Shown here piece by piece: positions 8,251 through 49,502 of a stretch of DNA of 64,000 nucleotides (positions are counted from its first letter, which is position 1; every line of letters begins with the position of its first letter). Position numbers and translations under genes: made by a program. The stretch comes from Tethya wilhelma. Taxonomy: Eukaryota > Porifera > Demospongiae > Tethyida > Tethyidae. A model generated the notes under the pieces. The model had not been told where the DNA came from. It ran no database searches and worked only from the letters and a program-made list of their open reading frames with translations. Where the stretch lies: contig CAXIPT010000001.1 in the NCBI GenBank assembly GCA_964030475.1, forward strand, positions 11,403,593 through 11,467,592, in the 5' to 3' direction.

Positions 8251-9186
8251 GCTCAAATATACCGACCGTTCATTCCAATTTTACTCGCTAAAAACGTGTT
8301 CGAATACGTTGCTAAGTGCGAGTACACGAACTCCGTATACTATCCGTGTTACAAACAATTTATGTTTGTGGTATAATTTTCATGTAGTATCAGAATATGC
8401 ATGAAGTAAGTTGACGCGCTAGTTAAAACTTACTTTTTGAGCTTTTTCAAAGACACAGAAGACCAGAGAGCCTTCTCACCAACGAGGTAAGTAAGTCTAC
8501 TAAGTAGAATAATGTAGCGGGTGGGCTGTAACTAGAGTAACTAGGCTATAAATGGCGCAGAAATAAGCGCCCAATAGTAAGTGCATGTATCTGTACCTAT
8601 TCTAACTGTAGAAAATAGTCTAGCTAATACTTACTACCCATTGAATCATAAGCGCTTAGCTTGTATCTCCCACAAATTTCATTGTAAACTTATAATACAC
8701 GATGTACACAACATTCATTCATTATTATGCAGATAAACAGCTCCTGGCATAGCCCAGCAATTCTGCAACGCTGTAGGGTGTCTTCTGATGATCTTCAAGA
8801 GATTTCTTTCTGCTAGAAGTGTTTAGATCATGAAGAATTCAGTGTTTTTTTGTTTAAAATTAAATATGCATTATTATAATGAGATGCACAAGCAGCAGCT
8901 GCATCGTGTACTTATCAGAATTATTAATCAATGAACATAGCAACATATCCCGTGTACTAACGGGAGAGAAGCTAGCCATGGCTGACATAGCTGCATTCAA
9001 GCGCTCATATCTCAGCAATTGAAGCAGCCCCACCCGTAAAATCTCGTCTGCAGCTCGCCAAGGTATGCCCCTCCCCTCTTGTGCAAAAAAATCAATTTCG
9101 CGCGCGCGTCGCGAATTACACTAAAACCGCCGATTACTACAAAGTTTGGTACTACCTGGTCGGTTTTCCAAAATTCGGTCACATTT

Positions 9187-11033
9187 CCTTGGTAGGGCAA
9201 TACGACAGACAAACAGTTCCATGTTGTACACACTCTCTAATGAAGTGGTGCCGAATGTCTATGTGCTTTGTTCTTTTGTGTCCTACTGGATTCTTTGCCA
9301 TTGCAATTGATCCTTGGTTGTCCTCAAGTATCTCAGTTGGTTCTTGCATGTTGACACCTAGATCAGACAATAGTTGTCTGAGCCAAATTGCTTCCTGGGT
9401 GGCGGATCCCAGAGCAACATATTCCGCCTCTGCAGTTGATAAGGCAACTGTAGCTTGCTTTTGACTTAGCCAACTGACAGCTCCTCCTGACATCAAAAAA
9501 ACATTGCCACTTGTTGAGTGACGGTTATCCAGGTCGTTTGCCCAGTCGGCATCAGAATAGCCAAAGAGATGTTTTCCTGGTACTGTAGCACTAGATCAAG
9601 TGTACCCTTTAGGTACTTGAAGATTCTCTTGACAGCCGTAAGGTGAGCCTCTGTTGGTTCAGAGTTGAACTTTGATACGACTCCTACAGCATAAGATATA
9701 TCTGGTCTGGTAGCTCTAGCTGCATGCAGTAAACTTCCCACCATAGATTGATAGTGAACTGGGTCCACTTTCTTACTATGTCCATCAGCCTTGACCAGCT
9801 TCACATAGGTGTTGCAACAGGATTAGCTTCAAGAAGTTTGTACTTCTCCAATAGTTTTAGTAGATACTGCATAGAGATGCCATCCTCAGTCTGCTGAAAG
9901 TTGACTCCAAGACAATACTCAAGTTGTCCCATGTCCTTCATTTTGAAGGTGTCTGAGAGACTTGACTTCATCTTCTGTATCCAAGCTGATTTTTGAGCGA
10001 TGAGAATCAGATCATCCACATAGACGGCAATGATTTCAAGTCTTCCTTCACTGTCACGGATGAATACACACGGGTCAGCACCGCTTTGAACGTACACATC
10101 ACGCCTTAGATATTGACAGAACTTTTCGTTCCAGCATCGTGGTGACTGCTTTAATCCGTAGAGAGATTTTTTTAGCTTGCATACTTGTTGTTCTTTTCCA
10201 GGTATTATATACCCAGGTGGCTGACACATGTAGATCTCCTCCTTGAGGTCACCGTTTAAAAACGCTGTCACGACATCCATTTTATGAACTTGCATCTTGC
10301 GTTCAACTGCAAAGGCAAGTAGTGATCGAATAGAGGACAGTCTAGCAACAGGGGAGAATACTTCATCGTACTCAATACCGTATTTCTGCAAAAATCCCTG
10401 CGCGACGAGTCGGCCCTTAAACTTCATCACTTCTCCTTGACTATCATACTTGACACGAAAAACCCATTTACAGCCAATCGCTTTTCAGCCTTCTGGTAAA
10501 TCCACAAGCTCCCAGGTATTGTTTTCAATAAGAGATTGATACTCAGAGTCAGCAGCAGCTCTCCAATGTTCTGAGTTGCTGCCAGTGATAGCCTCTTCAA
10601 TTGTAGAAGGCTCCTCAATCTCGGTTGCTCGAAGTGCAACATGGCAGGTATATTCGTCAAAGCCATAGTGGATACAAGGTCTCCTAGTTCGATCTGATTG
10701 TCTGAGTGGGTTCACATCAGTAGATTGATCTCCAACAGTTTCCTCCTCATGTGGGCAGTCCAGAGTGATCTCCACTTCCTGTGTGCCTTTTTCTGTTTCA
10801 AGCTCATGATTTCTCCAGAAATCATTCTCATTGAAGACAACGTCATGACGGATGTAGCATTTCTGCTTGAGCTCATCCCAGACTCTGTAGTTTCCAGAGG
10901 TTTCAGTGTACCCAATGAACCTGAACTTCTGGGCTTTCATGTCCAGCTTCTTACGTTCACCATCAGGTACGTGTACATACACAGTACAGCCAAACACTCG
11001 GATGTGTTCGAGATTGGGATTGGCTTTGTTCAC
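9187..11033 (-). pseudogene. Copia A pol: integrase tail, reverse transcriptase, RNase H
   Basis: The integrase C-terminal region starts near 11033 (NPNLEHIRVFGCTVYVHVP) and continues to RQSDRTRRP near 10700 and NSEHWRAAADSEY near 10560. Frames then shift near 10485-10430 into the reverse transcriptase, with VHKMDVVTAFLNGDLKEEIY near 10280 and the catalytic YVDDLILIA near 10020. Another shift near 9800 leads into the connection domain (MVGSLLHAARATRPDI). RNase H follows with ALSTAEAEYVALGSATQEA near 9430. The frame ends at the insertion site at 9187 after SYCPTKEM. Two frame changes make it a pseudogene, but all motifs are recognisable and the order is the standard copia order. Confidence 0.85.
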
Positions 11034-11524
11034 TCGATCTCAAGTACGTAAGTTGTTTTCGCGCAGTGTGCACGTGACATTATTTACAAGAGCTATGTAC
11101 GTAGCTATACACTGACCCGAGTCCCATGAGAAATAATAATTGACCTGCAAAATAAAGAACAGGTATTAAATTTACAGTAGATATTGAACAGATAGTCTAG
11201 ATGAAGTCTAAGTTGTTAAAAAATTATTAGCATATTTGAATGATTGTACTCTCTCCAGTGTGAGTAAGAGGAGGTGAAAGTGTTTGTCTTCCACTAATAA
11301 TAGGTTTTATACAATCATAGTGGCACCCATCTTGATGACATATTTCTATCCAAGTTCTTCTCTGTGAATTGAATTGATCAAGCCATTCTTGGATTTCTTG
11401 AGAAATTGTACATTCTCTGCGGAGTGGGGAGATTTTTGTCCATACATAGTCACTGTTGGACAGTAAGGAATTAGTTGCAGTATAGATAGTAACATTGAAA
11501 AGAGTAGAGGTTGCTTTTAGTTCC

Positions 11525-11984
11525 AACTGGGTTCCAAACGTGCATGGTTTGCGGACAGAAGTTAAATGTTCCTCGAAAGTAAGTCCTTCAGTGACACGTA
11601 CCCTTCAAAAATCTGACAATTGTCAGAAATGAAATCACATAGCTTGTCTCTTAGTTGGCCATGATTGTCGGAGTTTCCTGATAACTGCTTTGCAAGGCAG
11701 CGAAACATGCAATTTCCATCTCCTAAGACTGAGTCTAGTTTTCGTCCATAATAAATAACTGGGTTCCAAACGTGCATGGTTTGCGGACAGAAGTTAAATG
11801 TTCCTCGAAAGTAAGTCCTTCAGTGACGTACCCTTCAAAAATCTGACAATTGTCAGAAATGAAATCACATAGCTTGTCTCTTAGTTGGCCATGATTGTCG
11901 GAGTTTCCTGATAACTGCTTTGCAAGGCAGCGAAACATGCAATTTCCATTTCCTAAGACTGAGTCTAGTTTTCGTCCATAATAA
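11525..11984 (-). repeat. Tandem duplication of the OTU catalytic core (period 232)
   Basis: The segment starting AACTGGGTTCCAAACGTGC occurs at 11525 and again at 11757. Each unit encodes the OTU core with the catalytic DGNCMFRC. The units differ by a few bases, including GATGG versus AATGG before the Cys motif and a 2-base indel. The right arm has only one unit, so this duplication arose in the left arm or its source. Confidence 0.85.
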
Positions 11985-12031
11985 GTCAAAAATGTAGAAA
12001 CTTGTTTGGTTTTGGTTTCCTTGTTCTTGGC

Positions 12032-12098
12032 CTGCATGCGCATATACATGTGCCGCGACATGGTGTAGCGATCTGGCTTAAACACGCATGTAGTTTAC
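12032..12098 (-). other. 67-bp intron-like segment present only in the left arm
   Basis: On minus it begins GTAAAC and ends ATGCAG, and sits exactly between GGAGATCAG and GCCAAGAAC, which are contiguous in the right arm at about 15552-15553. Both splice dinucleotides and an AG|G proto-splice context are present. The ends also carry a short imperfect inverted repeat (CTACATGCGT and CTGCATGCGC). It is either a gained or lost intron or a tiny insertion with a CAG target repeat. Confidence 0.75.
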
Positions 12099-13969
12099 CT
12101 GATCTCCATTTGAGTTATCACTCCTAGTGGTAGATGCACTCACTACTTGGAATGTGAATGTATACAGTATGGTGTTAGTTGTGCAGTCAGTACAAAGCTA
12201 TATTAATATATAACATGACTTTACCTGATGGTTGTAAAGTATCACATTTTCTGTAACGGCAACACTTCTTTTTACGTCCACTTCCACCAAATTTCAACAT
12301 ATCTTTGCACGCATCACATGAACCACAGTCTTCCCTGGTACATCCAGAACATTCATTACACCTTTTCCTTCTCTTCGATACCTACCGGTATATATGACCG
12401 TAAACGTGGAAATATTGGCAGTAATTTAATTTGGCAATTTTGGTCAGGCTGCCTCCAACAAAAATATTGCCTGTTTTAAATTTGGCAGTCATTGACTGAA
12501 CAATCGCAGAATTTAATGTAGGACGAAATCATTGGCAGTACATTAAATATTCTGTGATACCCAAAACTTTCCTATGCATACTATAAAAATTGATACCTGT
12601 CTGAGTGTCTTTATAACATCTTCCACTGGACCATCTGGTATAGTCTCTTGGTTGGCTACCGTAGTTGGCTTTGTGAGGTCCTGATCTGTAACTTGACTCT
12701 CTGTTATTTTCTCTGCTCTCTACATGATTGTATACATTAAACAACAGGTTGAGTTAATGAATGAATACACAATGTATATATGTATACCTTTCTAAAAGTT
12801 TCTGCCTTTAGACCTACTCTGTTCCTGTACCTCCAATCAGACTTGGGACGTCCACGTTTAATTCTCATTTGTAGGTTCAAGTACTTGTGTTTGACTTTTT
12901 GTGCCTTCTTTCTTGCAGCTAATCGTACATGTGGCCTGAGAATCAGCCCTTCTTTAGTTGGTAAAAGTGTACGAAATTCTGTGATGAGTGAATTCAGTTT
13001 AGTTGTAAGTAGCTCCAGATGATCAGGATTTGTACATGAGTAGGTTAGAGTCTGTAGCACCTTCAAATTTGTTCTTGCAATTTCTCCATTTTACTTTAAC
13101 GATCTCATAAATCTCTGTAGGATGGAACATACATGTTAATATATGTACATTTTACAGTTTATACCAGTACACGTACCTTGCATTTGGGAAGTTCACTCTC
13201 TGTGAGCTGTGCGTCACCTTCATTGGGTGTCTCGTATGTTTCCATTGGACTGTTGTCTAGGTGACCATCAATAGCCGCACTTGTTTCAGTAATATTGGTG
13301 GTGTCAAAATAGTTGTCCAATGCAGAAGAATCTGTAGTAAGATAGGGACTCTGAAGGTATTCTAGACGAAATGAATTCCATGTCCAACCCTGTTTCAGGT
13401 TGAAAATTGAAAACATGTGCTTGCATGGGATATGCCATTGCTGCCAGTCACCACATGAACAAGAAGGCATTCCATCATCACTTTTCAGTCCAAAATTTAC
13501 TGTGTGTATCTTCTCTTTTGATCCTCTTACTGTAAATACACCATTCTCATCAGCATCCATTTCAATATCTTCATTGTGATATTTAAGAGCTTTAGATTTT
13601 CTGTCGAGGCAGTGGATTATTATACTTTTTGGTCTGTTGTGAAGGTACTCAGGAACATGAGAATTGTAAGATCTGTACTGGTCTGATTGCATGTGATTTA
13701 AGCATAGATACTTTTGATGAGCATCTGGGAGGAACGACTCAACAAGTATGGTACACATAGTAGATAAAGTCAGGTTTTTCCGTCTTGGTAAATAACTGTA
13801 CTTCAATACTTTATTTAGAGCCTCGGCACCATTATTTGTGTTGATGGCTGCATGGTAGTCATTGTCTCGAAAAGCCCTTGCCCATCTCTATGATATAATT
13901 ATACATGACATTGTAATAATTAGTTCAATGAGATTATATAATCAACATGAAAGTGCATGTGTTCAATAT

Positions 13970-13972
<3 letters not shown>

Positions 13973-14007
<35 letters not shown>

Positions 14008-14051
14008 NNNNNNNNNNNNNNNNNNNNNNNNNNNNNNNNNNNNNNNNNNNN
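13973..14051. repeat. (CA)n run followed by 44-base assembly gap
   Basis: A CA dinucleotide run (about 13973-14007) is followed by Ns at 14008-14051. The gap sits at the centre of the inverted duplication and hides the 5' part of the right-arm gene. Confidence 0.95.
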
Positions 14052-14477
14052 AGAAAATCTAAAGCTCTTAAATATCACGATGAAGATATTGAAATGGATG
14101 CGGATGAGAATGGTGTATTTACAGTAAGAGGATCAAAAGAGAAGATACACACAGTAAATTTTGGACTGAAAAGTGATGATGGAATGCCTTCCTGTTCATG
14201 TGGTGACTGGCAGCAATGGCATATCCCATGCAAGCACATGTTTTCAATTTTCAACCTGAAACAGGGTTGGACATGGAATTCATTTCGTCTAGAATACCTT
14301 CAGAGTCCCTATCTTACTACAGATTCTTCTGCATTGGACAACTATTTTGACACCACCAATAAAACTGAAACAAGTGCGGCTATTGATGGTCACCTAGACA
14401 ACAGTCCAATGGAAACATACGAGACACCCAATGAAGGTGACGCACAGCTCACAGAGAGTGAACTTCCCAAATGCAAG
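14052..14477 (+). CDS. Exon with SWIM zinc finger
   Basis: The motif reads CSCGDWQQWHIPCKH (about 14190-14235), matching the SWIM pattern C-x-C-x(n)-C-x-H seen in MULE transposases, FAR1 and ZSWIM proteins. An acidic Thr/Ser-rich tail follows. The exon ends AAG before GTACGT. The first bases abut the N gap, so the true exon start is unseen; the left copy suggests it extends about 285 bases upstream. Confidence 0.85.
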
Positions 14478-16129
14478 GTACGTGTACTGGTATAAACTGT
14501 AAAATGTACATATTAACATGTATGTTCCATCCTACAGAGATTTATGAGATCGTTAAAGCAAAATGGAGAAATTGCAAGAACAAATTTGAAGGTGCTACAG
14601 ACTCTAACCTACTCATGTACAAATCCTGATCATCTGGAGCTACTTACAACTAAACTGAATTCACTCATCACAGAATTTCGTACACTTTTACCAACTAAAG
14701 AAGGGCTGATTCTCAGGCCACATGTACGATTAGCTGCAAGAAAGAAGGCACAAAAAGTCAAACACAACTACTTGAACCTACAAATGAGAATTAAACATGG
14801 ACGTCCCAAGTCTGATTGGAGGTACAGGAACAGAGTAGGTCTAAAGGCAGAAACTTTTAGAAAGGTATACATATATACATTGTGTATTCATTCATTAATT
14901 CAACCTGTTGTTTAATGTATACAATCATGTAGAGAGCAGAGAAAATAACAGAGAGTCAAGTTACAGATCAGGACCTCACAAAGCCAACTACGGTAGCCAA
15001 CCAAGAGACTATACCAGATGGTCCAGTGGGAGATGTTATAAAGACACTCAGACAGGTATCAATTTTTATAGTATGCATAGGAAAGTTTTGGGTATCACAG
15101 AATATTTAATGTACTGCCAATGATTTCGTCCTACATTAAATTCTGCGAGTGTTCAGTCAATGACTGCCAAATTTAAAACAGGCAATATTTTTGTTGGAGG
15201 CAGCCTGACCAAAATTGCCAAATTAAATTACTGCCAATATTTCCACGTTTACGGTCATATATACCGGTAGGTATCGAAGAGAAGGAAAAGGTGTAATGAA
15301 TGTTCTGGATGTACCAGGGAAGACTGTGGTTCATGTGATGCATGCAAAGATATGTTGAAATTTGGTGGAAGTGGACGTAAAAAGAAGTGTTGCCGTTACA
15401 GAAAATGTGATACTTTACAACCATCAGGTAAAGTCATGTTATATATTAATATAGCTTTGTACTGACTGCACAGCTAACACCATACTGTATACATTCACAT
15501 TCCAAGTAGTGAGTGCATCTACCACTAGGAGTGATAACTCAAATGGAGATCAGGCCAAGAACAAGGAAACCAAAACCAAACAAGTTTCTACATTTTTGAC
15601 TTATTATGGACGAAAACTAGACTCAGTCTTAGGAGATGGAAATTGCATGTTTCGCTGCCTTGCAAAGCAGTTATCAGGAAACTCCGACAATCATGGCCAA
15701 CTAAGAGACAAGCTATGTGATTTCATTTCTGACAATTGTCAGATTTTTGAAGGGTACGTCACTGAAGGACTTACTTTCGAGGAACATTTAACTTCTGTCC
15801 GCAAACCATGCACGTTTGGAACCCAGTTGGAACTAAAAGCAACCTCTACTCTTTTCAATGTTAATATCTATACTGCAACTAATTCCTTACTGTCCAACAG
15901 TGACTATGTATGGACAAAAATCTCCCCACTCCGCAGAGAATGTACAATTTCTGAAGAAATCCAAGAATGGCTTGATCAATTCAATTCACAGAGAAGAACT
16001 TGGATAGAAATATGTCATCAAGATGGGTGCCACTATGATTGTATAAAACCTATTATTAGTGGAAGACAAACACTTTCACCTCCTCCTCTTACTCACACTG
16101 GAGAGAGTACAATCATTCAAATATGCTAA
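14052..16129 (+). CDS. MULE-derived SWIM-CXXC-OTU protein (5' end lost in gap)
   Basis: Five exons join in frame: 14052-14477, 14538-14864, 14933-15055, 15271-15427, 15507-16129 (stop TAA). All introns are GT-AG and short (60-215 bases). Exon 1 carries a SWIM zinc finger. Exon 2 is a basic helical region rich in Lys/Arg (LAARKKAQKVKHN, KHGRPKSDWRYRNR). Exon 3 is acidic/Thr-rich. Exon 4 is a CXXC finger and exon 5 an OTU protease domain. The left arm shows that a MULE transposase segment precedes exon 1. In known MULEs the SWIM finger lies at the C-terminus of the transposase; OTU domains are deubiquitinase-type cysteine proteases; CXXC fingers bind unmethylated CpG. I see no stop or frameshift in these exons. 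Whether all modules form one polypeptide is inferred from splice phases. Confidence 0.75.
15271..15427 (+). CDS. Exon encoding a CXXC-type zinc finger
   Basis: The peptide CNECSGCTREDCGSCDAC is followed by KFGGSGRKKK and a distal C-C-x4-C. This is the eight-cysteine arrangement with the KFGG signature of DNMT1/MLL/CFP1-type CXXC domains. That family binds non-methylated CpG DNA. It is flanked by TAG|GTATCG and CAG|GTAAAG splice sites. The left arm carries a nearly identical exon at 12225-12381 with apparently only silent differences. Confidence 0.8.
15507..16129 (+). CDS. Exon encoding an OTU-family cysteine protease domain
   Basis: The frame has the OTU start LDSVLGDGNCMFRCLAKQLS (nucleophile Cys in DGNC, near 15640) and the C-terminal His box GCHYDCIKP (near 16030). 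Spacing between the two is about 125 residues, normal for OTU. The protein ends shortly after at TAA 16127-16129. OTU enzymes cleave ubiquitin chains. In a transposon context such a protease could stabilise the transposase, but that is inference. Confidence 0.8.
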
Positions 16130-16349
16130 TAATTTTTTAACAACTTAGACTTCATCTAGACTATCTGTTCAATATCTACTGTAAATTTAATACCTGTTCT
16201 TTATTTTGCACTATTTTCAGGCCAATTATTATTTCTCATGGGACTCGGGTCAGTGTATAGCTACGTACATAGCTCTTGTAAATAATGTCACGTGCACACT
16301 GCGCGAAAACAACTTACGTACTTGAGATCGAGTGAACAAAGCCAATCCC

Positions 16350-16866
16350 TTTTGGGGAAGATTGGCTTCTCTATCACGCTTCTTTGTCGGATTCATAGGC
16401 CACTGGTAAGCCTTGTCAGCGATATCAAAAACAGTCAGCCATACTTGTAATGCCTGTGATTCTATCCTAGGCCAGCACTACAAAAGCTAGCTCTCTAAGC
16501 ACACTTTTCGTAGCCTGCATTTTCCACACTCCAGAGAAAAAGTAGCGTTTTAGCTCGAGGTCGCATCACTTCCGGTGAACTCCCGTGACACACACACACA
16601 CACACACACACGGACAGACACACAAAACTTTGCTTATAATATGATATATATATAGCAACTGAACGAGAGGCACACAAAACCGATGCCAAAAGCGACTGAT
16701 GAAAAGAAGTAACAGGAGAAAATGGAGGCTTGACATACTTTTTGTTTGCTACTTTAGCAATAGTCTTAAGCTCTCTAATAGTGGGATAGCAGCTGTCAAC
16801 GTTTCATTTCAAGACTCATGGTTTCAGTGTCCTTTTGGAGTCTGATGTTCTCTCATATCTACTCCA
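16350..16866. other. No gene seen; (CA)n at 16587-16611
   Basis: Non-coding sequence holding a CA microsatellite and, from about 16655 to 16740, a fragment of the dispersed repeat also found at 59.2-59.6 kb and 60.2-60.5 kb (shared words AAAACCGATG and CCAAAAGCGA). It ends at the single N at 16867. Confidence 0.6.
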
Positions 16867-16867
16867 N

Positions 16868-17390
16868 AGAAAGCAATCCGTCAACGTGAGGCTGTCCACA
16901 AGCAGCAAATGGCTCTAAAAAGGAGCTGAGCCAAACAGGCTGGAAGTGCTACAGAATGGCCCATACACAAAGACACACGGTAGCAGCCATCCCAAACAGC
17001 GTGGGACACAGAGAACATCGTGATGGAACAAAGGCACATGCACACGATGTGGGAGAGATGCACACCCTCGAGACAAATGCCCTGCAAGAGATACAGAATG
17101 CCATTGTTGAAAGAAAAAGGGACAGCACAAAAATCATTGCCGAAACCACCACAGACTCCGTAACTACTTGTTACCAAGAAGAAGCTCAACAAAAAATCAA
17201 GAAAGAGGAAGAAAAACAAAGAGGCTTCTTGTGTTCAGCAATGCTCAGCACCAGCTACTCATCCTCCATCTACTACAGCTAGGCAAGAACAAAACAAAGC
17301 TGTGGACACCCCAATTAATACCCATTAACCCAGTTCTGTACCTGACTCTGGATCCTCAGAAGATGATTCCGAAGCTATTCAACTAATAAA
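16868..17390 (+). pseudogene. Gypsy-type gag fragment, tail part
   Basis: The frame starting KAIRQREAVHKQQMALK continues what at 43921-44156 is a gag C-terminal region. Stops and shifts follow quickly. Near 17340 a readable SVPDSGSSEDDSEAI stretch appears. After the Helitron the same frame resumes at 18436 (VQYKEGKQEGWIEVKRRK) and ends at a TGA near 18572. I do not recognise that last part; it may belong to gag or to another gene. Confidence 0.4.
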
Positions 17391-18435
17391 CTAGCATGAT
17401 GTAGTACATCGAGGAGGCGAGCCTGAGCGCGTTATTTGTGGGAAGAGAACGCGCTGTATATTTTCTTGCGCTTGCGCAAAATGTCTAGGAAACACGTGCT
17501 GTTGAAGAACAAGCAAGAGCAGTTACTCCAATGGTGGCAATGAGACAACTAAACCAGTACTCCATGGTACCTCGTACACTTGCTGTATAGGGGACTTTCA
17601 CGGCTTGCAAACTCTTCTCACTCTTGACCAACCAGTTGCTAGGTCGTCGACTGTCAAGTACACTGTATAGGCATCTCCAGGGTGCATGTGCTGGCAGTTG
17701 TAGATATGAAGCACTCTCAATTGCATATTTGTGTTGAGTAGCTTCCCTCCGGTGCTGCTGTACTACACCTTGAAGAGCTCATGAGGCAGTATTTCTTGAT
17801 TGAGAAGAAGACGATATCTGTTTCAGAATGTCAGTGTCACTGTGAAATTGTCAATTAGCTGATTAGCTAGGAAGTTTTCTTAGTGTTGAAGAGCAATTTG
17901 GCCATCACTATGGGCGGAGCAAGTGTGAGAGGCTTGGCGTTGCTAGACTAGCATGGTGTCATAGTTGCTCAATATTAAATTTGCTCCTGCATGAGGTGTA
18001 GTCTCTCTAGGTCTGCTTCAAGAGATGGTATCTCTCAGGAGTAGTGTCCCCATGGCACTGAGTGTCTGCTCAGATGCTTCAGCTCTAGACGAGGCCGTCT
18101 CAGCCTCAGGAGTGGTCTATGAAGTTGGTTTCAATTTGAGCTCTGACAGTCCGGCTCCTCATGAGTGGTCTGCGCAGCGTTGTCTCTGCGTCGAGTCTCC
18201 TTTCTCTTTCGCTTTCTCATAGATCTATGGCAAGCTACAGTCAAGTCTCTGCCGGACGTGTATATATTGCGCAATTCCAAATTTCAATATTTTTGTGACG
18301 TAATCTAGACTGCATATTACCGTTCGAATAATTTGAATATACGGAAAGTATCCACGGTGTACAAACCAACAAACCAACAAACAGAAATTTTACCATTTGC
18401 AACGACTATGTGGGGCTCGCTCAGGCTCGCCCCAA
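17391..18435 (-). mobile_element. Non-autonomous Helitron (1,045 bp), copy 1
   Basis: On minus the 5' end starts TTGGGGCGAGCCTGAGCGAG, like the large Helitron at 26335. The 3' end has a small hairpin (GATGTA/TACATC at 17398-17410) followed by CTAG. Host bases are A at the 5' side and T at the 3' side (minus), the classic Helitron A|T target. Subterminal GGCTCGCC near the 3' end mirrors the 5' GGCGAGCC. The first few hundred bases also resemble the 5' region of the large Helitron. The only open frame (18025-18222, plus) has no recognisable content. Confidence 0.7.
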
Positions 18436-18849
18436 TTACAATGAAGTGTCTTTAAGTGTAAGGATCAAGCCCCTGCATGGAGTACAGTACAAAGAAGGCA
18501 AGCAGGAAGGGTGGATAGAAGTGAAACGAAGAAAAAGAGTAAAGAGACAGACACTTAGTGGTATTAAACATAGTGGATGTTGAGGGTGCTCGTGAAGTCA
18601 GGTATGGAGTGCGTAGTGATGTCCCAGGCTTGTTTATTAGAAAAGGATGTACAACAAGTAGTGTTAACTGGACACCGATAAAACCTCATTCACCTATATC
18701 TTCAAGATTACATTCCCATACTAAATAAATCAATGAATTCGACTACATCAATGCAAGCATTTAACTCTAATTCATGTTATTGTTTGTTATTTGTTTTAGT
18801 TTTGTTTTGTTTCTCAGCAGTTATGATGTCTGTCTGTCAGCCAAGCCAT

Positions 18850-19350
18850 TGAGTCTTGGCTGTAAATTCCATGATAATTCCCAGTACGGTAGTACTGGGT
18901 ACACAGGAATGGCACGGATGGCCCATTAGCGCAATACAAATATTCATGCGAAAGCACTAAAAGGCTTCTAAAGCTACTATTTAGCTCTTTCTCTTTCTAA
19001 TGAGCCTAAAAACATGGCCTAAAAACATCGCTAAACAAACACAAACATGTCAAACCTCCAATGTTCTCCATCTTCTTCTTATTTTTCTTATTTTTCTATC
19101 TTGGTTCAAATTTTCTCAGAGACTATTCACTTTTAGAAGCTGATTCTTGAAGGAACGAACTTAGTTTCTTCCGGTACAGTCGCTTTGGCCATCGGTTTTT
19201 AGTACAAGGCGAAAAGTGCCTCCTCCATATGGCCGCCATTAATTTCTATACTCATCCATAATTCATTAGCTTCTGAAAATTCGAATTGACGACCCTTTCC
19301 ACACACAAAAGTGTGCATTATTTGGAATTAAATGTACTGAAGTTGCCTGG
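18850..19350 (-). repeat. Dispersed repeat family copy
   Basis: The reverse complement resembles 59215-59700 and 60095-60640. Shared blocks include GGCCGCCATTAATTTC, AAAACATGGCCTAAAAAC and the hairpin AGTACGGTAGTACT near 18885. A truncated copy is at 46140-46422. No coding potential was recognised. Confidence 0.6.
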
Positions 19351-35079: not shown

Positions 35080-35808
35080 CTACCAAAACTTTCGTAAGAT
35101 TTCGTCATCTGAGTGGACTACAATGTGATGAGAGACGACAGATTGTGTGGGTGAAAGTGAGTGAGAGTGAGAGCAGGTCTTGCCAACAAGAACCCATCCA
35201 AAACTCGTCTCGAATGCTGTTGGGGTGCCACTGGGTCCACACCGCCGGCCATGCAGCATTACTTCATCATAGATGTCTGCTCCTAATAGTAGATCAATCT
35301 TGCCAGGAGTTGCAAAGTTGGGGTCTGCAAGAAAAAAGCCTGAGAGATAGTTCCACTTGGTACTGCCATGAACCTGATGAAGTGTAAGGTCACATGTGAC
35401 TTGTGGCTTGATAACTGCTGTGATGGTGAACCTTGCTTCTGGCATGTATAATGAAGCGATCTCAAATGTTGAGACAGAACCATGAGATGATCCACTTGTC
35501 ATGCCTCCAATCCCAGAGACTGTTAGCCGTTGTGACTGACAACTCAGGCCCAGTGATTGTGCAATACGTTCAGAAATGAATGACATTGTGGAAGCAGAAT
35601 CAAGTAAAGCACGAGCCTTTACAAATGCGCCATTTGGTAAAACAACTTGGACTTGACAGGTCATAAGCAGTGTGTTTGGAACATTTGCCTTTCGAGAGAC
35701 AGAGGCATTAGAAGTAACATGTGAGTCAGAGCTGGGCACAGAAGTCAACGGAGTGAGAGGAACTGATAGCTGAAACGTTGCAGCAGAAACAGAAAGTGTT
35801 GTTGTATC
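35080..35808 (-). pseudogene. BEL/Pao aspartic protease (Peptidase_A17-like)
   Basis: The frame runs leftward from the Gypsy insertion. It includes VLPNGAFVKARALLDSASTM with the catalytic Asp in LLDSAS, FISERIAQSLGL, then LLLGADIYDEVM and FGWVLVGKT. This is the BEL A17-type protease preceding RT. Between 35079 and 34813 the frame is disrupted by stops, though SRRFHSLKRSFYAKGQ-like RT-linker pieces are visible. Confidence 0.8.
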
Positions 35809-36027
35809 TGTGACATAACAGGAAGTGATGTAATTATTATTGTGGTAAAGTATTGGTGATTTGTGCAATTTAAAAAGTCTCTCTTGTCTGTCAGTTTTTT
35901 TTTGGTTGTGAATGTATGCTTCTTTTTGTTTTCTTGTGAGGCCATGCCTTCTGCTGAGATCTAATAATAAGTTGTTAATACTAAAAGACGCAGTCAGAGC
36001 TAGCCAGCGGGAAGGGGTGGCGTTACA
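35809..36027 (+). repeat. Gypsy 5' LTR
   Basis: Runs TGTGACATAACAGG to GGCGTTACA, 219 bases. By eye it differs from the 3' LTR at two positions (C/A near position 11 and C/T near position 189). A primer-binding-site-like TGGCGACCCTGCCAGGA follows at 36029. Confidence 0.9.
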
Positions 36028-36083
36028 TTGGCGACCCTGCCAGGATCAGGATAGTCTAGATGTCGCAATGAGAGCTGAACAGT

Positions 36084-37936
36084 TTGCTCTCTGAACCGAG
36101 CGCAAATCTGTGTAGGCTGCGGAGTGGACGTGACCACGAAGTGGCAATGGAAGCAGAAGGAAGCACTGACGGAGTGAACCAGATGGAGGAGCAAGGGAAT
36201 AGTTGTGGTGACCAGAACTCCTCCCGTGAACTAGAGCTGCAAGAGCTCCAGGAGAAGTTGTTGATGGCCGAGGTGGAAGTGGAGAAAGTTCGAACAGATT
36301 GCAACCGCCGTGTACAGCAAGCTGTGAGTGAAGCTGGTAGCGCGCAGGTGGACTTTTCTCGCCAACTCTTGGAAATGCAGCAAACGGCCGATGAAGCCAA
36401 GGACGATGCCGAGGAGCAGCGTATGCAGGTTGGAGAGTTAGAAGCGGTGTGTCGGCAACAGGAGGACACCCTATCAAGCCTACAGGCCCAACTAGATGAG
36501 GCAGTTTCAAGGGCACAAGAGTCGGAGACTCTTAGAGAGCTGGCTGAGTTGAGAAGGATCGAGGAGATGCGGAAGCAGTAAAGAGAGTGGTACCGCTGGG
36601 AACACCAACACAACAAGGCTCTAATCGCCGAGCTACGTGGCAAGCTGAGGGACTGGGAGTGCCCTGAGCGAGGTACACCAAGTGGCAAGGTGAGTGCTCA
36701 GAGGGGTGAGAGTAGTAGTGGTGTGTTGTGTGAGCGTACTGAGGGTAGTACGTGTACTGGTCTGAGAGAGATGGCCATTAATGGTGATCGAGAGGCCAAT
36801 GAGAGGGTTGTTAGCTTTGAAGTGGAAACTTCTGGTGACCACAGGAATTCGCCTCTTCCCAGCATGTCCAGAAAACCACTGTCTGTTCAGCATTGCCCTA
36901 ATTCACTTGTGGGTGCTGATAGTACTATAGAGCCTTCCCTGGGCCTCAATAGTGACTCAGCCGGGACAGTTGTGGGTATAGAGTTACCAGCTGTGGTCAG
37001 TTCTGGAGTACATCGCAATAGTGGTGGTGCCACAACAGAGATACATGAACCAGATAAGGGATCTAGTAGTGTGCTGATGCAGCAATTAACCCAACTTGTG
37101 CAAACCCAAACAGCCATGGTGGAAGCACAAACTAAGGCGGTGTCTGCCCAAAGTCTACCTCCTATTCCACGCTATAGTGGTGAGGGTGGGCAGGCGCTGG
37201 AGGAAGGGTTTGAGCGGTGGATAGAACAATTTGAAGAGCGTGCTAAGCTATCGGGCTGGTCGGACGACATGCGCCGCTATAATTTGAAGATGTCACTTAG
37301 CAGAAATGCCTATCAGACTTATCGACTGCTGTCTGACGAGGTCAAAGCCAGTTATGATGCCACTGTTGATGCATTAAAGGCTAAGTTTAGGCCCGTAGAC
37401 ATCGAAGAGCTTAGAGGAATGGAATTCCACCAATTGACACAGAAAGAGCAATCTATTGAGCAGTTAGGCCTGCAGCTGCAGAAATTGGCTAAGCCCACAT
37501 TGACTTGCAAGGATCTAGATCGGCTTTTAAAGGGAAGGTTTTTCCAAGCTCTTTTGCCACGTTGGCAGCGAAAGCTAGGTGCTCCGAGAGTTGAGGAGAG
37601 CTTTGATGAGTTGTTCAGTCGTGCACGTACTGCAGAACGACGCGAACAACAATATAACGATATGGCAGATTGCAGGGATAAGGAGAAGGCTAAGAAAGAT
37701 GACAAGAGTGCAAAAAGCACCAAGGGGCTTCGGGCAAATCGGTAGGCCACAAACCATCAACTGAAAGGAAAGATGGTCAGGGTATTAAATGTCATAATTG
37801 TGGTGGCATTGGCCACATAGCTCGTTATTGCAGGACCGGGAAGAAGTCAGGCCCTGAAGCCTCTGGGAAACAGAATCATGCAACTACTGAGAGTCACAGT
37901 CGTCAAGTTCAGAGCGTGCAGGAGCTTAGTGACTAG
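36084..37936 (+). pseudogene. Gypsy gag with long coiled coil, broken
   Basis: The N-terminal part (36084-36581) is a coiled coil rich in Glu/Gln/Leu (SRELELQELQEKLLMAEVEV). A TAA at 36579-36581 interrupts it; the second copy at 46-48 kb reads through. The 36690-37745 part holds a Ser-rich linker and the gag core (ALEEGFERWIEQFEERAKLS, NLKMSLSRNAYQTYRLLSDE). After a frame change near 37740 a zinc knuckle CHNCGGIGHIARYC appears near 37792. A TAG follows at 37934-37936. Compared with the second copy it lacks two codons near 37492. Confidence 0.8.
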
Positions 37937-43920: not shown

Positions 43921-44690
43921 GTACGACACTGTCCTGGGGAAATTCGACCGATATTTCAAAAATGTGATCTTCGAATGGGCAAGATTCAACCGCAGGAACC
44001 AGCTGGAAGGGGAAAATGCCAAGAACTACATCACAGCTCTGCGACTATGCAGGCTTGAAAGATGAAATGATTCGAGACCGACTAGTAGTTGGAATTTGAG
44101 ACAGCTCGCTATCAGAGCGTCTTCAAATGGATGCTGAACTGACCCTAAAAAAGCATAGAAAGCAATCCGTCAACGTGAGGCTGTCCACAAGCAGCAAATG
44201 GCTCTAAAAAGGAGCTGAGCCAAACAGGCTGGAAGTGCTACAGAATGGCCCATACACAAAGACACACGGTAGCAGCCATCCCAAACAGCGTGGGACACAG
44301 AGAACATCGTGATGGAACAAAGGCACATGCACACGATGTGGGAGAGATGCACACCCTCGAGACAAATGCCCTGCAAGAGATACAGAATGCCATTGTTGAA
44401 AGAAAAAGGGACAGCACAAAAATCATTGCCGAAACCACCACAGACTCCGTAACTACTTGTTACCAAGAAGAAGCTCAACAAAAAATCAAGAAAGAGGAAG
44501 AAAAACAAAGAGGCTTCTTGTGTTCAGCAATGCTCAGCACCAGCTACTCATCCTCCATCTACTACAGCTAGGCAAGAACAAAACAAAGCTGTGGACACCC
44601 CAATTAATACCCATTAACCCAGTTCTGTACCTGACTCTGGATCCTCAGAAGATGATTCCGAAGCTATTCAACTAATAAACTAGCATGATG
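43921..44690 (+). pseudogene. Gypsy-type gag fragment
   Basis: Reads VLGKFDRYFKNVIFEWARFN and QLEGENAKNYITALR, then after a shift DEMIRDRLVVGI, a stop, and SLSERLQMDAELTLKKA. The blocks match the gag core also seen at 22341-23241, but from a different copy. From 44157 it enters the 2,266-bp duplicated segment. Confidence 0.7.
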
Positions 44691-46422
44691 TAGTACATCG
44701 AGGAGGCGAGCCTGAGCGCGTTATTTGTGGGAAGAGAACGCGCTGTATATTTTCTTGCGCTTGCGCAAAATGTCTAGGAAACACGTGCTGTTGAAGAACA
44801 AGCAAGAGCAGTTACTCCAATGGTGGCAATGAGACAACTAAACCAGTACTCCATGGTACCTCGTACACTTGCTGTATAGGGGACTTTCACGGCTTGCAAA
44901 CTCTTCTCACTCTTGACCAACCAGTTGCTAGGTCGTCGACTGTCAAGTACACTGTATAGGCATCTCCAGGGTGCATGTGCTGGCAGTTGTAGATATGAAG
45001 CACTCTCAATTGCATATTTGTGTTGAGTAGCTTCCCTCCGGTGCTGCTGTACTACACCTTGAAGAGCTCATGAGGCAGTATTTCTTGATTGAGAAGAAGA
45101 CGATATCTGTTTCAGAATGTCAGTGTCACTGTGAAATTGTCAATTAGCTGATTAGCTAGGAAGTTTTCTTAGTGTTGAAGAGCAATTTGGCCATCACTAT
45201 GGGCGGAGCAAGTGTGAGAGGCTTGGCGTTGCTAGACTAGCATGGTGTCATAGTTGCTCAATATTAAATTTGCTCCTGCATGAGGTGTAGTCTCTCTAGG
45301 TCTGCTTCAAGAGATGGTATCTCTCAGGAGTAGTGTCCCCATGGCACTGAGTGTCTGCTCAGATGCTTCAGCTCTAGACGAGGCCGTCTCAGCCTCAGGA
45401 GTGGTCTATGAAGTTGGTTTCAATTTGAGCTCTGACAGTCCGGCTCCTCATGAGTGGTCTGCGCAGCGTTGTCTCTGCGTCGAGTCTCCTTTCTCTTTCG
45501 CTTTCTCATAGATCTATGGCAAGCTACAGTCAAGTCTCTGCCGGACGTGTATATATTGCGCAATTCCAAATTTCAATATTTTTGTGACGTAATCTAGACT
45601 GCATATTACCGTTCGAATAATTTGAATATACGGAAAGTATCCACGGTGTACAAACCAACAAACCAACAAACAGAAATTTTACCATTTGCAACGACTATGT
45701 GGGGCTCGCTCAGGCTCGCCCCAATTACAATGAAGTGTCTTTAAGTGTAAGGATCAAGCCCCTGCATGGAGTACAGTACAAAGAAGGCAAGCAGGAAGGG
45801 TGGATAGAAGTGAAACGAAGAAAAAGAGTAAAGAGACAGACACTTAGTGGTATTAAACATAGTGGATGTTGAGGGTGCTCGTGAAGTCAGGTATGGAGTG
45901 CGTAGTGATGTCCCAGGCTTGTTTATTAGAAAAGGATGTACAACAAGTAGTGTTAACTGGACACCGATAAAACCTCATTCACCTATATCTTCAAGATTAC
46001 ATTCCCATACTAAATAAATCAATGAATTCGACTACATCAATGCAAGCATTTAACTCTAATTCATGTTATTGTTTGTTATTTGTTTTAGTTTTGTTTTGTT
46101 TCTCAGCAGTTATGATGTCTGTCTGTCAGCCAAGCCATTGAGTCTTGGCTGTAAATTCCATGATAATTCCCAGTACGGTAGTACTGGGTACACAGGAATG
46201 GCACGGATGGCCCATTAGCGCAATACAAATATTCATGCGAAAGCACTAAAAGGCTTCTAAAGCTACTATTTAGCTCTTTCTCTTTCTAATGAGCCTAAAA
46301 ACATGGCCTAAAAACATCGCTAAACAAACACAAACATGTCAAACCTCCAATGTTCTCCATCTTCTTCTTATTTTTCTTATTTTTCTATCTTGGTTCAAAT
46401 TTTCTCAGAGACTATTCACTTT
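44157..46422 (+). repeat. 2,266-bp duplicated segment, copy 2
   Basis: Same sequence as 16868-19133. Here the left side is natural (gag continues into it) and the right side ends at the single N at 46423, the mirror of copy 1. Confidence 0.9.
44680..45724 (-). mobile_element. Non-autonomous Helitron (1,045 bp), copy 2
   Basis: Same element and same insertion site as 17391-18435, carried by the duplication, so it is not an independent insertion. Confidence 0.7.
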
Positions 46423-46423
46423 N

Positions 46424-48001
46424 ACGACTGAACAACTCATCAAAACTCTCCTCAGCTCTTGGAGCACCTAGCTTTCGCTGCCAACGTGGCAAAAGAGCTT
46501 GGAAAAACCTTCCCTTTAAAAGCCGATCTAGATCCTTGCCAGTCAATGTGGGAAAAGCTCGCTTAGCCAATTTCTGCAGCTGCAGGCCTAACTGCTCAAT
46601 AGATTGCTCTTTCTGTGTCAATTGGTGGAATTCCATTCCTCTAAGCTCTTCGATGTCTACGGGCCTAAACTTAGCCTTTAATGCATCAACAGTGGCATCA
46701 TAACTGGCTTTGACCTCATCAGACAGCAGTCGATAAGTCTGATAGGCATTTCTGCTAAGTGACATCTTCAAATTATAGCGACGCATGTCGTCCGACCAGC
46801 CCGATAGCTTAGCACGCTCTTCAAATTGTTCTATCCACCGCTCAAACCCTTCCTCCAGCGCCTGCTCACCCTCACCACTATAGCGTGGAATAGGAGGTAG
46901 ACTTTGGGCAGACACCGCCTTAGTTTGTGCTTCCACCATAGCTGTTTGGGTTTGCACAAGTTGGGTTAATTGCTGCATCAGCACACTACTAGATCCCTTA
47001 TCTATCTCTGTTGTGGCACCACCACTATTGGGATGTACTCCAGAACTGACCACAGCTGGTAACTCTACACCCACAACTGTCCCAGCTGAGTCACTATTGA
47101 GGCCCAGGGGAGGCTCTATAGTACTATCAGCACCCACAAGTGAATTAGGGCAATGCTGAACAGACAGTGGTTCTCTGGACATGCTGGGAAGAGGCGAATT
47201 CCTGTGGTCACCAGAAGTTTCCACTTCAAAGCTAACAACCCTCTCATTGGTCTCTCGATCACCATTAATGGCCATCTCTCTCAGACCAGTACACGTACTA
47301 CCCTCAGTACGCTCACACAACACACCACTACTACTCTCATCCCTCTGAGCACTCACCTTGCCACTTGGTGTACCTCGCTCAGGGCACTCCCAGTCCCTCA
47401 GCTTGCCACGTAGCTCGGCGATTAGAGCCTTGTTGTGTTGGTGTTCCCAGCGGTACCACTCTCTTTCCCGATCGAACTGCCTCCGCATCTCCTCGATCCT
47501 TCTCAACTCAGCCAGCTCTCTAAGAGTCTCCGACTCTTGTGCCCTTGAATCTGCCTCATCTAGTTGGGCCCGTAGGCTTGTTAGGGTGTCCTCCTGTTGC
47601 CGACACACAGCTTCTAACTCTCCAACCCGCATACGCTGCTCCTCAGCGTCGTCCTTGGCTTCATCGGCCGTTTGCTGCATTTCCAAGAGTTGGCGAGAAA
47701 AGTCCACCTGCGCGCTACCAGCTTCACTCACAGCTTGCTGTACACGGCGGTTGCAATCTGTTCGAACTTTCTCCACTTCCACCTCGGCCATCAACAACTT
47801 CTCCTGGAGCTCTTGCAGCTCTAGTTCACGGGAGGAGTTCTGGTCACCACAACTATTCCCTTGCTCCTCCATCTGGTTCGCTCCGTCAGTGCTTCTCTCT
47901 GTTTCCGTTGCCACTTCGTGGTCACGTCCACTCCGCAGCCTACTCAGATTTTCGGTCGGTTCAGAGATCGAGAGCAAACTGTTCAGCTCTCGTTGCGACA
48001 T
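46424..48001 (-). CDS. Gypsy gag, second copy, open for 526 codons, 3' end cut at an N
   Basis: Starts at ATG 47999-48001 (MSQRELNSLLSISEPTENLS). It shares the coiled coil and gag core of 36084-37745 but without the internal stop. A two-residue AF insertion gives KRAFPTLTGKDL where the other copy is shorter. The frame is uninterrupted until the N at 46423, before the zinc knuckle. It is the best-preserved gag here. An N-terminal coiled coil before the gag core suggests oligomerisation. Confidence 0.85.
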
Positions 48002-48035
48002 CTAGACTATCCTGATCCTGGCAGGGTCCGCCAAT

Positions 48036-48251
48036 TGTAACGCCACCCCTTCCCGCTGGCTAGCTCTGACTGCGTCTTTTAGTATTAACAACTTATTATT
48101 AGATCTCAGCAGAAGGCATGGCCTCACAAGAAAACAACAAGAAGCACACATTCACAACCAACAACAACTGAAGACAAGAGAGACTTTTAAATTGCACAAA
48201 TCACCAATACTTTACCACAATAATAATTACATCACTTCCTGTTATGTCACA
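48036..48251 (-). repeat. Gypsy 5' LTR of the second copy
   Basis: About 216 bases, reverse complement of the 219-bp LTRs at 35809 and 42377, with small differences in the A/T-rich part (AACAACAAGAAG, ACCAACAACAAC). The primer-site-like CCTGGCAGGGTCCGCCAA lies at 48018-48035. It is inserted in Copia B. Confidence 0.85.
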
Positions 48252-49502
48252 GTTATGTGCAGTGCTTGTGTAGCCAATGAATCTCAGCTTCTCTGCTTTG
48301 CTGTCTAACTTCTTTCTACTTCCTTCTGGGACATGAGTGTAGACTATACACCCAAAGACTCGAATGTGTTTCAAGTCTGGTTTCTCACCATACCACCGTT
48401 CATAGGGTGTTTCACCCAACGGTAGTGCAGTTGTCACCATTCGATTGCGTAGGTACACTGCAGTTTCCACTGCTTCTGCCCAGTATGCATTACTGAGACC
48501 AGCGTGTCTTATCATTGTGCGGGCAGCTTCTGTCAGTGTCCGATTGAGACGCTCAGAGACTCCATTCTGCTGTGGTGAGTAGGCAGCAGTGAATTCAGCA
48601 TGTATTCCACGCTCCTTCAGATATCTCTTGAACTCCTCTGACAGGTATTCTCCACCTCTGTCAGCTCACAAGGCTTTTATACTCTGACCGGACTCCTTTT
48701 CAACTGCAGCTTTGAATTCCTTGAACTTCTCCAGTGCTTCTGACTTTTCCTTCAAGAAATAGGCTTTGCAGCAACGAGAGTAGTCGTCTGTAAATGTAAT
48801 GAAATACCGACTTCCTCCAAATGACTTGGTTTGCATAGGACCACAGATGTCGGTGTGCACTAGTTGTAACCTCTCCGTTGACTTGATTTCTTTCAAGGGT
48901 CTGTGAGGCGCTCGGTGCATCTTCCCTTGTATGCAAGCCTCACACAGCCTCCTTTCGTGTCCACCACGAAGACTCAATCCTGAAGCACTCTTTTCCAGCT
49001 GACATAACTGGTTTGAGTTAACATGTGCTAGCCTCTGATGCCAGAGCTCAATGTCACTGACTTGTGACTCTTGAGAAACTTGAGCACTCTCCACTGACGG
49101 CTTATGCACTTCACAGTCAAGCTTGTACAGCTTCCCGACTGTCGACCCAACGGCAACTAGCTGATGTTTTTCGTCACGTATCCAACAATACTTTTGACCA
49201 AAGGATACCACCTTCTGATTCAGTGCTGCTGCATGAACACTGAAAAGGTTGCTCGCGAGCTTTGGAACGTATAGGACATCAGTCAACCAACCTGGGATTC
49301 TCTTTCCCCGACGAAGTTCTGTCACTATCTTGACGCGACCCACTCCCAGAGCTTTTACAGTGTGCCCATCACCAAGTCCAACCAATTCAGGTGTGTCAAA
49401 CTCTCTGAAGTTGCGAAGTACTTTTTTCTGAAATGTCATATGTTGACTTGTGCCTGAGTAGATGATCCAATCTTCATAACACTCTTCACCTCTTGTCACC
49501 AT
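48252..49502 (-). pseudogene. Copia B protease and integrase
   Basis: Protease region: DWIIYSGTSQHMTF near 49470-49430, where copia normally has Asp-Ser-Gly; the catalytic Asp is Tyr here. The integrase zinc region is LWHQRLAHVNSNQLCQLE with CEACIQGKMHR. The core reads LVHTDICGPMQTKSFGG, then after a TGA at about 48664-48666 the DRGGEYLSEEFKRYL block and AYSPQQNGVSERLNRTL (Glu present). YERWYGEKPDLKHIRVFGC follows. The TGA sits where an Arg codon CGA would give the usual motif. Confidence 0.85.

Follow-up and report, generated by a model that had tools for sequence, protein, structure and literature searches.

Mutator-like elements (MULEs) with captured proteases were already known, as the earlier note on this DNA says. 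MuDR-6_HM, a Hydra MULE of group 14 of Dupeyron et al. 2019 (PMC6446971), joins a MULE transposase to an OTU domain ('Ovarian Tumour Gene') as the sponge element does, but the table of that paper, the description by which we compare the two, gives neither a zinc finger nor a terminal inverted repeat (TIR) for it. Animal MULEs with Ulp1 and PHD are described from Hydra and lancelet (PMC2836005). They share with the sponge element the ALS2CR8 plus MULE/ZSWIM lineage and a C-terminal reader combined with a ubiquitin-like deconjugase, but there Ulp1 (C48) is followed by PHD, whereas in the sponge element CXXC is followed by OTU. Ginger1 also has OTU or Ulp1 at its C-terminus, in one case together with PHD, but its core is of the Gypsy-integrase type with YPYY and GPY/F motifs (PMC2836005), whereas the sponge core is MULE/ZSWIM. 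Ginger1 was rejected as an identity for the sponge element, since Pfam finds MULE and ZSWIM RNaseH-like domains, and no integrase (rve) family, in the copies on contigs C14 and C69. The term 'CXXC' does not occur in the main text of PMC6446971 or of PMC2836005, and plant MULEs with Ulp1 are cited in the latter. These plant elements likewise carry a captured deconjugase, but belong to a plant lineage and have Ulp1 in place of OTU. ULP1-bearing plant MULEs go by the type name Kaonashi, and we know of no CXXC on them. KMT2A/B, DNMT1 and KDM2 have the same KFGG-type finger, but on host chromatin enzymes and not on transposases; OTUD3, OTUD5 and OTUD1, whose OTU domains are the nearest, are host enzymes as well. 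In the open-licence PMC literature, no CXXC-bearing transposase was found in the titles and abstract starts among the matches listed.

We analysed a stretch of 64,000 nucleotides from the sponge Tethya wilhelma (the window). It very probably contains two insertions of a Mutator-like DNA transposon, each represented by its 3' half, in which SWIM, CXXC and OTU are joined. Judged from the exons of the window and of C69 summed, one of them frameshifted, the element would carry one spliced gene of very roughly 1,180 codons, with the predicted order ALS2CR8-like N-terminus, MULE RNaseH-fold transposase, SWIM, basic region, KFGG-type CXXC finger and OTU protease domain. This architecture is very probable, and what appears new in it is the C-terminal combination of CXXC and OTU on a MULE, a MULE with OTU being already published.

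Two gene copies at an assembly gap

The window holds a palindrome composed of a left arm (11016-14007, minus strand) and a right arm (14052-16349, plus strand) with 44 N between them. The aligned pieces of the two arms are 97.7-99.6% identical. The features are the following:

11006..11015, no strand: 10-bp target-site duplication (TSD) GTTCGAGATT beside the left copy, in a Copia integrase frame
11016..14007, minus strand: 3' half of the left-arm MULE copy, ending at the N gap, dead
11016..11055, minus strand: 3' TIR of the left copy, GGGATTGGCTTTGTTCACTCG..., also at the right arm and at the C3, C11, C120 and C16 copies
11227..12031, minus strand: OTU exon, left copy, in which about 228 bp are duplicated in tandem, so that the exon is broken
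11525-11754/11757-11984, minus strand: the tandem duplication within the left OTU
12032..12098, minus strand: 67-bp GT-AG intron of the left copy and the C3 copy, absent from the right arm
12225..12381, minus strand: CXXC exon, left copy
12597..12719, minus strand: linker exon, left copy
12788..13114, minus strand: basic-region exon, left copy, with an in-frame TAA
13177..13887, minus strand: exon with the MULE transposase end (NTNNGAEALNK) and SWIM (Pfam SWIM 3.2e-6)
14008..14051, no strand: assembly gap of 44 N adjoining a (CA)n run, a probable misjoin
14052..14477, plus strand: SWIM exon, right arm, its start cut by the N gap (splicing, Pfam)
14538..14864, plus strand: basic-region exon, right arm (splicing)
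14933..15055, plus strand: linker exon, right arm (splicing)
15271..15427, plus strand: CXXC exon of KFGG type, right arm (splicing, Pfam)
15507..16129, plus strand: OTU exon with DGNC and His boxes, up to the stop, right arm
16310..16349, plus strand: 3' TIR of the right-arm copy, its outer flank unlike that of the left copy

Joining the right-arm exons (14052-16129, plus strand) across four GT-AG junctions, where the earlier note had counted five, gave 551 codons without a stop. As that note had proposed, the SWIM finger, the basic region, the CXXC finger with KFGG and the OTU domain with its DGNC box and its His box (CHYDC) all lie in this one spliced frame. Three domains of the product score above the curated Pfam cut-offs, SWIM (7.9e-6, amino acids 33-63), zf-CXXC (3.3e-11, amino acids 294-338) and OTU (1.7e-11, amino acids 387-467). 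The fourth domain that the note had named for the Pfam search was absent, since MULE (PF10551) gave no match above cut-off in either arm of the palindrome. Because the right-arm gene begins at the N gap (14008-14051), its 5' half is hidden; no stop interrupts the visible part.

The left arm reaches further upstream than the right one, into the transposase end with NTNNGAEALNK. The MULE segment that had been assigned to this arm holds as a transposase end and not as a catalytic domain, the only Pfam match there being SWIM, and the MULE domain lies on contig C69. SWIM after the transposase core, which is common but not universal in MULEs, was found in the window and in the relative P0011. The left-arm copy is dead because of the in-frame stop in its basic exon and the tandem duplication inside its OTU. 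The intron at 12032-12098 is precisely lost from the right arm near 15552, in copies about 99% alike, and its 3' end was also found in the C11 copy. The left insertion lies in Copia retrotransposon frames (window 8860-11015, minus strand), which, judged by eye, run from integrase to RNase H.

Elsewhere in the window, a different MULE was observed at 52404-53683, with a domain match at C1:11456101-11456382 (1.4e-14) and a SWIM-like CSCKFRTSTYLPCRH recognised by eye. The window also holds near-identical large repeats, 16865-19133 with 44154-46422 and 35808-37622 with 46424-48252; they end at single Ns (16867, 46423), which is a sign of assembly joins.

Copies in the genome and relatives in other animals

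The 551-amino-acid protein has 90 matches genome-wide. These and 28 matches to the transposase end were grouped into clusters, with module limits and a joining distance of 4 kb that we chose, which gave 46 genomic clusters with the window's two arms counted. Other copies of the architecture, on which the reading in the earlier note depended, were thus found: at least two modules occur in 30 of the 46 clusters, at least three in 16 and all five in 6, and CXXC is accompanied by OTU in 19. The order MULE end, SWIM, basic region, CXXC, OTU was kept in all 30 multi-module clusters. Whole-genome Pfam scans gave 34 zf-CXXC, 80 OTU, 105 MULE and 16 C48 matches, and a proximity count took all the CXXC, OTU and C48 matches and 55 of the 105 MULE matches. 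An OTU match lies downstream of zf-CXXC, on the same strand and within 4 kb, in 15 of 34 cases (0.044 expected) and upstream in 0 of 34. At the locus L018 (contig C60), CXXC (5.7e-13) and OTU (6.6e-11) are both above cut-off in one unspliced frame of 273 amino acids. The C14 copy has 856 open codons in six exons with five GT-AG junctions and runs from ALS2CR8 and MULE (PF10551, 2.7e-10) via CXXC into the start of OTU, SWIM and the cut-short OTU scoring below cut-off.

Two further arrangements were observed in the genome. At C9:4327604-4330633, MULE, the transposase end with SWIM, CXXC and then C48 (Ulp1) follow one another on one strand within 3.1 kb, possibly the same chassis with Ulp1 in the place of OTU. 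At C13:655580-657695 (L020, L034), a second inverted CXXC-OTU pair, 96% alike, flanks an N. Among 43 pattern matches in viral contigs there was no relative.

The nearest proteins outside this genome, among the matches listed, come from two other sponges. P0001 from Halichondria panicea has CXXC and OTU above cut-off, and is the only row with both PF02338 and PF02008 precomputed among the matches listed (2; 120 of 144; 27). P0011 from Dysidea avara has SWIM and CXXC above cut-off and MULE below it (1.1e-4), and is 41% identical to the C14 query over 68% of the query. Animals commonly carry the broader transposase lineage (144 matches). After SWIM, Ulp1 and PHD were found in P0044 and P0103, in P0065 with Ulp1 below cut-off, and in P0055 by precomputed domains; SWIM itself was recognised by Pfam in P0065 and P0103 and not in P0044. 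Ulp1 alone stands at the tail place in P0052, P0088 and P0109, and UCH in P0049, while many relatives are without any such tail domain in the precomputed annotation (best 120 of 144). A tree built by a quick method from 72 rows (69 from the best 120 of 144 and 3 from this genome) places the four CXXC rows within a set of 15 rows (SH-aLRT 99) that has no C48- or PHD-labelled rows. The other 11 rows of this set carry no module label, 54 of the 72 rows are unlabelled for modules, and the C48/PHD rows are scattered over several places. P0059 from Myripristis murdjan, a fish gene model named SUMO-activating enzyme subunit 1 isoform X1, has the same MULE core, a C-terminal ThiF match below cut-off and a long branch inside the CXXC-bearing set; it could be a gene-model fusion. 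Where OTU sits in the sponge element, the same transposase lineage bears in other animals Ulp1, alone or together with PHD, or else UCH, and by its domain content this appears to be an exchangeable reader-plus-deconjugase tail.

Element ends and the probable 5' half on another contig

Both arms, the C3 copy and three more places end at the same base, GGGATTGGCTTTGTTCACTCG, with differing sequence outside. An end pattern built from this end and both ends of a diverged copy on C6 has 19 genome matches at no more than one mismatch (7 of the 19 carry one), against 1 for the reversed control. The opposite end, GGGAATGGCTTTGTTCACTC, is found among these matches at five places, at one mismatch. TIRs are present at both ends of the C11 copy, at both ends of the C6 copy, and at the left copy of the window when it is paired with C69. 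The C11 copy, 2,352 bp long and internally deleted, is flanked by a perfect 10-bp duplication, AAATAACTAC. The 10 bp outside the 3' end of the left copy, GTTCGAGATT, recur just outside a 5' inverted repeat on C69, which matches the left-copy 3' repeat at 32 of the first 40 bp. The C6 copy (5.4 kb) has inverted ends, and its flanks, TTACTTAGT versus TTACAGGGG, have no matching TSD. TSDs of MULEs measure 8-11 bp (PMC6446971). The target duplications that the earlier note had expected are present, at 10 bp and not 9 bp, exact in two (C11, window-left/C69) of the three insertions with both ends read. With the MULE domain in C69 and C14, the inverted-repeat ends and the TSDs, its assignment of the gene to a Mutator-like transposon is borne out.

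Terminal repeats were less evident at other copies. None was convincing within the 8 kb examined at L040, L041 (C14) and L042 (C101). The C16 copy consists of a 92-bp end followed by a Tc1/mariner-like frame (recognised by eye), with no N-terminal exon match below E 1 beyond that end. TSD-like pairs (8/10) seen by eye, C34/C16 and C55/window-right, may be duplications, as possible cases only.

The C69 half contains the ALS2CR8 and MULE domains (PF10551, 4.1e-13). It has a frameshift, which is absent from the C55 and C11 copies, and it stops at an N directly after an exon donor. From the comparison with C14, the intron broken there is the one whose acceptor precedes window 13887. When the flanks of the left arm and of C69 are joined without the element, they form a continuous Copia integrase frame, and an empty-site match (C5:216019-216270) spans the insertion point at 95% (query 1-257 of 300). 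The best reading is that the left arm and C69 hold the two halves of a single insertion, and the catalytic MULE domain that fits the left-arm copy would sit on C69, outside the palindrome. Two other 5' halves resemble that of C69 closely, C55 at 98.3% identity and C34 at 95.5%. An intact full-length copy was never read in one piece, near-identical 5' and 3' halves being split at N gaps. Near-identical copies at differing sites suggest movement, and only suggest it. Between close copies, pN/pS was 0.58, 0.23 and 1.63 in the 3' half (few changes, mixed) and 0.18, 0.28 and 0.87 in the second and third exon stretch of the 5' half (few changes), with nonsynonymous changes only (3, 3, 4) in its exon 1; resting on too few changes, these ratios are unusable.

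Since the arms differ in the intron, the duplication and the outer flanks, we take them for two insertions that are both truncated at the N gap, instead of one gene with an added left-arm segment as the earlier note had it. The C69 end with the TSD of the left arm, together with the restored Copia frame, indicates that the palindrome is probably a misjoin of these two insertions. A true inverted structure, made by a foldback MULE or by aberrant transposition, would agree with the near identity of the arms and with the second inverted pair about an N on C13, but is unlikely, given that the other end matching the left arm's TSD was found on C69, that the 44-N gap ends both arms, and that the arms are unlike in the features just named.

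It is extremely improbable that the exons for CXXC and OTU belong to separate host genes or to nested elements and adjoin a SWIM/MULE remnant by chance. The window copy requires splicing and starts at a gap, and 19 of the 34 CXXC Pfam matches are without an OTU Pfam match downstream, but such a chance adjacency was rejected on the single unspliced frame of L018, the co-linear modules in every multi-module cluster and the proximity count; the same CXXC and OTU pair in Halichondria also speaks against it. A domesticated host gene, derived from a MULE and no longer a transposon, is very improbable too. Near-identical copies are few, and MULE-derived FHY3-like factors are described in animals, three of them in the sponge Amphimedon (PMC10027918), but we rejected this explanation because many copies have the same inverted-repeat ends in differing flanks and because of the TSDs; the insertion into a Copia frame and the decayed copies argue in the same direction. 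The Mutator-like transposon remains our preferred reading.

The CXXC finger, the OTU domain and a possible mechanism

The finger of the window has the KFGG motif and the Cys pattern and belongs to zf-CXXC by sequence. The solved chains nearest to the right-arm CXXC are KMT2B (1.7e-11), then MLL1 (HRX), DNMT1 and KDM2B. In an alignment of five relatives, the finger being the sole part covered by all five, 16 of its positions are identical in 5/5, including 7 Cys, 4 Gly and 3 Lys. Trp replaces one Cys in the P0001 finger, and the C14 finger is without part of the first Cys motif. The finger would be of the kind that binds unmethylated CpG, and CpG could guide its binding.

Pfam OTU with the catalytic Asp, Cys and His was found in the window copy. 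The Cys is kept in 13 of 15 and the His in 14 of 14 sequences covering the site, the window's included; these counts omit L010, L014, L022 and L024 (matches on the minus strand) and the rows judged non-OTU (P0132, P0133, P0136-P0139, P0141-P0144, P0146). The two OTUs that have lost the catalytic Cys are L020 (Phe; in the plus-strand copy of the C13 pair) and P0147 (Ser). In P0145 (146 amino acids, another source), CXXC runs into the DGNC box in one frame. The predicted structure has the OTU fold, with the region around the His modelled at low confidence; a prediction of the OTU exon made without an alignment had a mean pLDDT of 33.7 and was discarded. The nearest OTUs by sequence and by predicted fold are OTUD3, OTUD5 and OTUD1, and the fold alignment with OTUD3 covers 116 aligned residues at 28% identity. 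By these likenesses the domain would be of the deubiquitinase kind, and it may remove ubiquitin.

The CpG content of the ends was determined on 17 of the 19 pattern matches, L075 and L077 (one mismatch each) having been judged by eye as chance and dropped. At positions 21-100 of these 17 ends CpG o/e was 1.27, whereas the element body had 0.43 and the sequence outside 0.65; Wilcoxon comparisons of CpG densities gave 1.5e-4 and 1.7e-4, and 0.004 with one end per type (8 ends). The low CpG of the body fits a methylated, decaying element. Among other inverted repeats in the window, both arms had an o/e of at least 0.98 in 6 of 11 partly overlapping pairs, which shows that CpG-dense ends are not specific and support end-reading weakly.

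We propose the following mechanism tentatively, its steps taken together having a little less than an even chance. The MULE core would pair the ends and then cut, while SWIM and the N-terminal domain would hold the DNA. The CXXC finger would sit on unmethylated CpG, either within the CpG-dense ends of the element itself, which would restrict engagement to ends free of methylation, or in open, unmethylated target DNA. The OTU domain might act on the transposase itself, or on chromatin or repair proteins at the ends, stripping them of ubiquitin, and such removal could lead to a longer-lived complex or to steered repair. It is also possible, with a substantial minority chance, that the CXXC no longer reads CpG methylation and is a structural reader or a reader of TIR sequence, the OTU being kept only to stabilise the transposase. 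The CpG-dense ends of other inverted repeats and the degraded fingers of P0001 and C14 point that way, but the KFGG motif, Cys pattern and basic residues of the window finger match those of the MLL/DNMT1/KDM2 fingers, and the 16 positions identical across five relatives also count against it.

The wider form of the proposed mechanism is more doubtful. It holds that one animal MULE lineage has a swappable C-terminal reader and deconjugase, in which the CXXC would read the element's own CpG-dense ends, unmethylated DNA would license transposition, and the OTU would shield the end complex. In sponges the tail would be CXXC with OTU; a cnidarian, sea urchins and lancelets would have Ulp1 with PHD, a scallop would have UCH, and one locus of this genome (C9:4327604-4330633) would combine CXXC with Ulp1.

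Transposons are silenced by host DNA methylation, and transposases can be degraded. A transposase with a KFGG-type CXXC and a deubiquitinase-like domain would be a direct counterpart to both, and this selfish element seems to carry tools against the DNA-methylation and the protein-removal systems of its host. That a reader is paired with a deconjugase in at least two branches of a single lineage would suggest that selection keeps the pair and not the protease alone. The sponge genome is CpG-depleted and therefore presumably methylated, which would make it a natural place to test such counterplay with methylation.
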